Assembly: GCF_030253575.1 (NCBI RefSeq)
Contig: NC_080564.1
Coordinates: 2,214,501-2,278,500, forward strand
Direction: 5' to 3'
Origin: Rhododendron vialii
Taxonomy: Eukaryota > Streptophyta > Magnoliopsida > Ericales > Ericaceae
DNA: 64,000 bases
The notes below the pieces were generated by a model. That model was not told the DNA's origin. It saw only the letters and a program-made list of their open reading frames with translations, and ran no database searches. Of this stretch, positions 13,133 through 15,346 are shown piece by piece. Both the position numbers and the translations under genes were made by a program. The first letter of the stretch is position 1; the number at the start of each line of letters is the position of its first letter.

Positions 13133-13263
13133 GGCCCAGGCCCATATATTTTTACTAATTGAATCTCTTCCGTACACGTGGCAAAGCAGTCAACCTCCAG
13201 CCACCGATTCCCCGATCCAACGGAACTAGGGTTTCCAAGCCCTACTCCTTGCACTATATAATC
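13133..13263 (+). promoter_or_regulatory. Promoter: two Site II elements, telo-box, TATA
   Basis: Two abutting GGCCCA motifs (13133-13138 and 13139-13144) are Site II elements in reverse orientation. TAGGGTTT (13227-13234) is a reverse telo-box. CTATATAATC (13254-13263) is a well-placed TATA box. Site II plus telo-box is the known signature of plant promoters for ribosomal-protein and snoRNA genes, which fits the snoRNAs downstream. The pyrimidine-rich stretch near 13290-13310 is the likely transcript start (inferred). Confidence 0.7.
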
Positions 13264-13641
13264 ACCGCCCCAACTCTGTCTTCCCAATCCCCCCTTCGTC
13301 TTCTTCTTCAGCTGCGCTCCAATGTCTCGTAACTAGGGTTTCTGTTCAACTTCCTCTTTACGTCAATTTTTTTGGGTTGGCTGTGTAGATGTAGTTATTA
13401 TCTGATTTAGGAATAGGGTTTGCGTCGAATACTGATTACCAGCGCTTTTAAAAAAAAATTGGCGTTGAGTATGAGCCGACGCCATATTTTTCGCCACTCC
13501 GTTTCTGACCTAGATTTAGGGCCTCTTTGATAGAGTCCTTTCGAACCAGAATCGGAGAAATTCCACGTTGTTTCTGTTTCAATATTATTTTTTTTGATTT
13601 AAAGTTTGTGGTGTTGGTTTTGCGATTTCAAAAAGGAAAGA

Positions 13642-13745
13642 GAGATGGATGTGATGAGTATTTCCCCAGATGATCGACAATGAAATCACTGAGCGCTCTT
13701 CTCTTTTTAGAGAAATTCCAAGCCAGGATACTCTGATCCTTCTGC
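13642..13745 (+). ncRNA. Box C/D snoRNA, copy 1
   Basis: C box GTGATGA at 13651-13657, internal CTGA (D'-like) at 13689-13692 and D box CTGA at 13733-13736. Between D' and D is a hairpin, TTCTCT-TTTT-AGAGAA. The candidate guide just upstream of D reads CCAAGCCAGGATA. The terminal stem is weaker than in the other two copies. The target rRNA site was not identified. Confidence 0.65.
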
Positions 13746-13940
13746 CTCTCCATTTATTTACTCTTCTGTTTTTGAATTACTGTTTATGTTTAAAACCCTA
13801 AACCCTGCAACCCCTAATACGTGTATGTATCTCCGTAGCCCAGTTAGGGTTCTGGGTTTACTGTTATTTGGGTCTATTATCTGTTCTATGTGTAGTTTAT
13901 AAACTTCACTGGTAATTAGTGTGGTAGTTTCAATTCAATG

Positions 13941-14042
13941 AAAGATGGAGGTGATGACTATTTCCCCAGATGATCGACAATGAAATTACTGAGCGCTATT
14001 CTCAATTTGAGAAATCCAAGCCAGGATATCTGATCCATCTTT
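13941..14042 (+). ncRNA. Box C/D snoRNA, copy 2
   Basis: A perfect 9-bp terminal stem, AAAGATGGA (13941-13949) with TCCATCTTT (14034-14042), closes the molecule. C box GTGATGA is at 13951-13957, internal CTGA at 13989-13992 and D box CTGA at 14030-14033. The internal hairpin TTCTCA-ATT-TGAGAA is conserved. Nearly identical in the box regions to copies 1 and 3. No rRNA target was identified by eye. Confidence 0.78.
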
Positions 14043-14710
14043 GTCATAAATTTTCGGTCTTTTGTATTTCAATGATGATTGTGTTAGTTTGTGTTTGGAT
14101 TTTACATTTATACTTTTATTATAGGCATGAATTTTGAAACAGATCTTGTATTTTGTTTTTAGTATTCGTGTACTTGTAAAACTATGGGTTTTATTCTCAA
14201 GTACTGATTCAAGGTTTTGCGAGAGTAGTCTTTGTTCCATAACATATTTGCTGCTTAACTATGAAAGGGAAAATACCTGGGTTTTAAAAGGCTCTATGCT
14301 CTAAATTGGTGTTGGAATTTGACCCGAGTATGCTTCATTCGATGATTTCCAAAGCTGGTTTTGATTCACTCTTAATTGGGTGTCTGCTTATCTGGTTCGT
14401 GGTTTTGCCCAATAAACCTTGTAATGGTTCGTGGATTTTGACCCTTTTCAGATCTAAGATGGTTTTCTGTGTATGTTATTGAAAGTTTGTTGCGAAATAT
14501 GGTGAATGTGAACCTGATATGGTTCTGTGATAACTTTGTTATGGATGGAAGTTTGGATGTTATCTAAGATGGTTTATTGAAAGTTTGTATATCATTGAAA
14601 GTTTGTTGGAAATATGGATGTGACCTTTGAGCATGAGTTGGGAAGTTAGATAAATTTTCTATGGAAAGCTTGGATGTTGGCTACTGGATGCTGGTAGATG
14701 ATTAATTAAA

Positions 14711-14888
14711 CTCGGTTTGGATAAGGTGTTTCTTTGAATGAGACTGCTGGATTTTTATGAACTGAAATAGAATTCCTTCAATGATGGATGATGATAATGC
14801 TCGGTTTGGATAAGGTGTTTCTTTGAATGAGACTGCTGGTTTTTTATGAACTGAAATAGAATTCCTTCAATGATGGATGATGATAATG
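14711..14888. repeat. 89-bp tandem duplication
   Basis: Two nearly identical blocks start CTCGGTTTGGATAAGG at 14711 and 14800. Confidence 0.9.
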
Positions 14889-15260
14889 TTTTGTATAGGT
14901 TGAACAATGAGAAATAATCCCAGGATACGGATTTTGTTTAGTCCTTGTCTTGGAATTTATTTGAGAAGCTTGTGTTGGTACACATTCTAGGGTATTGACT
15001 AATTTTCCAGCATTAATTAATGAACTAGATCAAAAATTGAGAAATCAATGAAAGATGGATGTGATGATTGGATGATGATAATGTTCTGTATAGATTGAAC
15101 AATGAGAAATAATCCCAGGATACGGATTTTGTTTAGCTCGTCTTGGAATTTATTTGGGAAGCTTGTGTTGGTACACATTCTAGGGTATTGACTGATTTTC
15201 CAGCATTAATTAATGAACTAGATCAAAAATTGAGAAATCAATGAAAGATGGACGTGATGA
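14875..15260. repeat. About 193-bp direct duplication carrying snoRNA 5' ends
   Basis: Block A (14875-15067) and block B (15070-15260) both run from GGATGATGATAATG through CAGGATACGGATTTTG to AAAGATGGA/GTGATGA. Block A stops inside the snoRNA, while block B continues into complete copy 3. Confidence 0.85.
15051..15067 (+). pseudogene. Truncated snoRNA 5' end (fourth copy)
   Basis: AAAGATGGATGTGATGA matches the terminal stem and C box of the three snoRNAs, then the sequence switches to the GGATGATGATAATG block. There is no D box, so it cannot be a functional C/D RNA. It arose with the about 193-bp direct duplication around it. Confidence 0.7.
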
Positions 15261-15346
15261 TTATTTCCCCAGATGATCAACAATGAAATTACTGAGCGCT
15301 ATTCTCAATTTTGAGAAATCCAAGCCAGGACATCTGATTCATCTTT
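15244..15346 (+). ncRNA. Box C/D snoRNA, copy 3
   Basis: Terminal stem AAAGATGGA (15244-15252) with TTCATCTTT (15338-15346), one G-U wobble. C box GTGATGA 15254-15260, internal CTGA 15292-15295, D box CTGA 15334-15337. The hairpin TTCTCA-ATTT-TGAGAA is retained. It differs from copy 2 by a few substitutions, mostly outside the boxes. Confidence 0.76.

Follow-up and report, generated by a model that had tools for sequence, protein, structure and literature searches.

Three paralogous snoZ103 box C/D snoRNA genes at one Rhododendron vialii locus, likely plant counterparts of SNORD12, snR107, and snR190

We analyzed a 64-kb stretch of Rhododendron vialii DNA (the window) and found that an Rfam search places three of its sequences in the plant family snoZ103 (RF00149). 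All three matches lie on the plus strand, extend over the whole length of the family model, and score 83.0 to 84.7 bits against a gathering score of 44 bits (E values, 5.9e-16 to 1.7e-15; Table 1), a homology far beyond chance. The first-pass annotation had called a three-copy box C/D snoRNA locus from the letters alone and had suggested looking it up in Rfam; the locus is confirmed and belongs to a known family. No other Rfam family reaches its cut-off in the window, and a scan with the bacterial code found no tRNA there. The locus lies downstream of a NAC gene (Pfam NAM) and upstream of a SEC5 gene (Pfam Sec5, 24.3 bits; cut-off, 22.7). A promoter-like stretch precedes copy 1 and contains three TAGGGTTT octamers, which we take to be telo-boxes and which are presumably associated with snoRNA promoters; a further octamer at 13793-13800 brings to four the number near the locus, of 14 in the window. 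Two tandem duplications are found between copies 2 and 3, one of 89 bp x 2 (14711-14888; 98% matches) and one of 193 bp x 2 (14870-15262; 95% matches). The longer one carries a stray snoRNA 5′ end, consisting of a terminal stem arm and a C box (15050-15069), which is followed by no complete snoRNA. Across the 532.6-Mb genome the RF00149 search returned four matches, namely, the three copies and one on contig C9 (14888757-14888837) that, at 43.3 bits, falls slightly below the cut-off. This decayed fourth copy is closest to copy 1, with about 60 bp of upstream flank in common, and has lost antisense element 2, the hairpin, and any clear D box.

The three copies possess the C box, D box, and terminal stem of a box C/D snoRNA, and on re-reading the letters we recovered each feature that had been described as common to them, including the internal CTGA and the perfect 9-bp terminal stem of copy 2 (AAAGATGGA/TCCATCTTT). 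Three of the nine stem pairs are broken in copy 1 and one is G-U in copy 3; 88.9% of the stem cells are paired across the copies, and the 3 unpaired cells are all in copy 1. The genes are presumably expressed, and their RNAs are predicted to assemble into box C/D snoRNPs (fibrillarin, NOP56/58, 15.5K). The k-loop reads UCGACA in copies 1 and 2 and UCAACA in copy 3, while the snoZ103 and SNORD12 consensus sequences both read UCGAC(A/U). This substitution, together with the decayed copy on contig C9, raises the question of whether one or more of the copies are nonfunctional relics, as an S. pombe snR107 mutant in the motif at that place lost its methyl mark according to the available text of PMC11971394. 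However, all three copies retain the boxes, both antisense elements, and the hairpin, with scores of at least 83 bits, and we consider relics unlikely.

Table 1. Positions of the snoZ103 genes, their sequence elements, and the promoter-like stretch in the window
Feature	Copy 1	Copy 2	Copy 3	Strand	Basis or remark
snoZ103 copy 1, box C/D snoRNA	13645-13741			+	RF00149, 84.1 bits
snoZ103 copy 2		13945-14038		+	RF00149, 84.7 bits; 9-bp terminal stem extends to 13941-14042
snoZ103 copy 3			15248-15342	+	RF00149, 83.0 bits; k-loop TCAACA, not TCGACA (alignment)
C box GTGATGA	13651-13657	13951-13957	15254-15260	+	Letters re-read
Antisense element 1 TTTCCCC	13661-13667	13961-13967	15264-15270	+	Pairs with 25S GGGGAAA
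Proposed D′ box ATGA	13670-13673	13970-13973	15273-15276	+	D+5 falls on 25S G2396, 3/3 copies
k-loop motif TCGACA, between D′ and C′	13674-13679	13974-13979	15277-15282 (TCAACA)	+	Block GAUCGACAAUG in SNORD12 consensus
Proposed C′ box ATGAAAT, degenerate	13680-13686	13980-13986	15283-15289	+	Suggested by position
Internal CTGA	13689-13692	13989-13992	15292-15295	+	Predicted pairing with CAG right after element 2
Internal hairpin	13699-13714	13999-14013	15302-15317	+	Letters, fold
Antisense element 2 CCAAGCC	13718-13724	14016-14022	15320-15326	+	Pairs with 25S GGCUUGG
D box CTGA	13733-13736	14030-14033	15334-15337	+	Letters re-read
Promoter-like stretch upstream of copy 1	13227-13421			+	Telo-box octamers at 13227-13234, 13334-13341, and 13414-13421

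Which tetranucleotide serves as the D′ box determines the predicted target. The first-pass annotation had put D′ at the internal CTGA, a choice that is less well supported than the AUGA directly after UUUCCCCAG. With AUGA as D′, UUUCCCC falls at guide positions 3-9 in every copy, and the D+5 rule selects the third G of 25S GGGGAAA, G2396. Of the published Arabidopsis Nm sites tested, 50 in 25S from position 1847 on and 35 in 18S, no other is matched (24 published 25S sites before 1847 were left out of the D+5 test). With the internal CTGA as D′, none of these 50 25S and 35 18S sites is matched. The anticipated rRNA complement 5 nt from the CTGA does exist in all three copies, with 18S U893 (7 bp throughout) and U1534 (8 bp, but 7 bp in copy 1) as D+5 partners, but neither nucleotide appears in the published methylation list. 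The D′ box is therefore probably AUGA, and the internal CTGA probably is not. In Arabidopsis, 25S G2396 is methylated, and the available text of PMC8053127 assigns the mark to SnoR28. In all three copies, element 2 (CCAAGCC/GGCUUGG) forms 7 bp with the stretch 13-19 nt upstream of the target G (-19 to -13). This is not the only such pairing nearby, since every copy has one other run of at least 7 pairs (at least 7 Watson-Crick) within 100 nt of the site.

A 7-bp fit alone is not specific, since UUUCCCC with AUGA as D′ also forms 7 bp at about 1494-1497 in 25S and at G1204 in 18S, both unlisted. Among 4,000 shuffled snoRNAs per copy, a 7-bp D+5 match to one of the 50 sites occurred in 340, 309, and 281 (copies 1, 2, and 3), and 48, 55, and 53 also had an extra pair. 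The chance of a target match by pairing alone is thus not small, and because shuffles reach the 7-bp match so often, the target claim depends on homology and the published site besides pairing. The pairing tests used working versions of the 18S and 25S sequences. The working 18S agrees with 35/35 published letters at zero offset. For the working 25S, an offset of 6 gives agreement at 49/50 letters from 1847 on, whereas no single offset does better than 18/24 (offset 3) before that position, and that part is therefore less sure. The genome's own rDNA could not take its place: two short, diverged 25S rDNA fragments on contig C2 lie over the target and agree with the working 25S at 55/58 and 57/63 letters; they are dispersed in the genome and have several differences from the working sequence in common.

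Between the proposed C′ box and element 2, each copy can form a hairpin in which the first-pass annotation had seen a compensatory change, evidence of selection, and an element foreign to standard C/D RNAs. Its letters are as claimed (copy 1, TTCTCT-TTTT-AGAGAA; copy 2, TTCTCA-ATT-TGAGAA; copy 3, TTCTCA-ATTT-TGAGAA), all 18/18 cells are paired across the copies, and the exchange of U-A for A-U at the sixth pair is real. The argument for selection is weak, as the double change affects one pair in one of three paralogous sequences, a single event, and its covariation count is reached in 174/500 shuffles. A direct estimate comes to about 0.02: among sets of three random changes, about 2% leave a fully Watson-Crick stem of six pairs, or 7% if G-U is allowed. 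When the spacer was shuffled by mononucleotides, perfect stems of at least 6 bp arose in 0.4%, 1.9%, and 2.6% of cases (copies 1, 2, and 3). In dinucleotide shuffles, 29, 12, and 10 of 200 folded at least as stably as the 41- to 42-nt region, and 81, 25, and 18 of 200 did so for the whole RNA. The hairpin exceeds chance by a modest margin only, and neither its region nor the whole RNA has an unusual folding energy. The corresponding stretch of the Rfam snoZ103 consensus forms a 6-bp hairpin when folded alone, which is absent when the whole consensus is folded. A further predicted pairing joins CUGAGC to GCCAG at element 2; its five pairs are invariant in all copies and so carry no information on selection. 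We regard the double change in the hairpin as a hint of selection, not proof; the hairpin in itself adds little unless many homologues show covariation.

Nor does a hairpin at this place lack a precedent. Downstream of C′, S. pombe snR107 contains 21 nt that are predicted to form a stem-loop, the deletion of which had little effect, with methylation only marginally impaired and a wild-type polysome profile (PMC11971394, available text), and the available text of PMC8536666 mentions a potential internal stem in snR190. The first-pass reading as a whole, in which D′ is at the internal CTGA, the RNA is perhaps directed to 18S, and the extra hairpin is selected, draws on the observed pair exchange, the small share of random change sets that preserve the stem, the hairpin of the consensus stretch, and the U893 and U1534 partners. 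Against it stand the shuffles that reach the same covariation, the absence of any match between the internal CTGA and the published sites tested, and the mild outcome of the snR107 deletion, and we find it quite improbable.

We judge it likely that the locus comprises three paralogous snoZ103 genes that guide methylation of 25S G2396 with element 2 as an extra pair, and that they are the likely plant counterpart of SNORD12/snR107/snR190. Each snoZ103 RNA would associate with fibrillarin in a snoRNP, and element 1, with AUGA as D′, would direct one methyl mark to G2396, near the catalytic center of the ribosome. The CCAAGCC upstream of the D box would form the extra pair upstream of the target G and aid binding, and perhaps could also aid early pre-60S folding, as has been reported for the second element of the two yeast RNAs. 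The hairpin may mainly span the gap between the two antisense elements. That snoZ103 RNA is instead chiefly a pre-60S chaperone that does not methylate, like S. cerevisiae snR190, which carries an antisense box directed to that region and has a chaperone role yet no detectable G2395 methylation (PMC8536666, available text), would accord with the degenerate C′ box and with D boxes that have no 25S D+5 partner of at least 7 bp in copies 1 and 2 and only one, at an unlisted place, in copy 3, but it is very unlikely given that G2396 is methylated in Arabidopsis and that SnoR28.1 knockout appears, in the available part of a review, to affect methylation of the predicted site.

A bolder extension of the G2396 guide reading, to which we likewise give very little credence, would make snoZ103 the plant branch of a pan-eukaryotic SNORD12/snR190/snR107 line with a double role, methylation and chaperoning, at the domain V root helix. 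The conserved CUGAGC/GCCAG stem and the hairpin would then shut element 2 until the pre-rRNA is met, acting as a regulatory switch and not a spacer. If the G2396 guide reading that we judge likely is right, snoZ103, for which Rfam's line gives no target, would be linked to a guide and chaperone of the early large ribosomal subunit that has been studied well, and a single tandem locus would be available whose deletion could probe both roles.

An arrangement of this kind has reportedly been described before: Cao et al. (2022, Plant Cell) are said to have found three SnoR28.1 genes at one Arabidopsis locus, with an antisense box of 7 bp and an extra box of 8 bp. If so, the window probably holds the counterpart of SnoR28.1 and is already explained. 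As characterized in the available text of PMC8053127, Arabidopsis SnoR28 resembles the snoZ103 copies in its 25S G2396 target and in having a 7-bp major pair and a nearby extra pair; all three copies make the D+5 pairing with G2396 on the working 25S, although their extra pair is 7 bp as opposed to 8 bp in SnoR28. Membership of the Rfam family snoR28 (RF00355) was considered and rejected, as copy 2 scores only 15.1 bits against a cut-off of 45 and copies 1 and 3 give no match at E values up to 1. That RF00355 is a separate family and that snoR28 is given an 18S cytosine target in the available text of PMC5122169 count against equating snoZ103 with SnoR28.

According to the available text of PMC11971394, human SNORD12/B/C and the yeast RNAs snR107 (S. 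pombe) and snR190 (S. cerevisiae) are orthologues that have two antisense elements and a conserved 6-nt k-loop motif. Against the Rfam SNORD12/SNORD106 model (RF00581), copy 2 reaches 26.3 bits, aligning UUUCCCCA and GAUCGACAAUG (E value, 0.0011 in a 131-base search and 0.07 in an 8.6-kb search), and copies 1 and 3 have no match at E values up to 1; with a gathering score of 43 bits, we do not assign the copies to that Rfam family. There are differences of arrangement as well. The snR107 and snR190 genes lie upstream of U14 in both yeasts, according to PMC11971394, whereas the 64-kb window has no U14 at or above the Rfam cut-off. In the class, element 2 would pair with 25S domain I; element 2 of snoZ103 pairs near the target, with no domain I match among the best 12 listed per copy. 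One SNORD12 guide domain is treated as nonfunctional in the available text of PMC8522698. The internal hairpin goes unannotated in Rfam, where the RF00149 structure line contains the terminal stem only, but it follows C′ as does the predicted stem-loop of snR107. What snoZ103 has in common with SNORD12, snR107, and snR190 is element 1, the block represented by GAUCGACAAUG in the SNORD12 consensus, and, presumably, the target. Arabidopsis G2396 would correspond to yeast G2395, and the three RNAs would then aim at the same G as snoZ103. Element 1 of the copies is directed to this domain V root-helix G and is accompanied by the k-loop block, as in the SNORD12/snR190/snR107 class, and, taking the G to be equivalent across species, snoZ103 appears to belong with that class.
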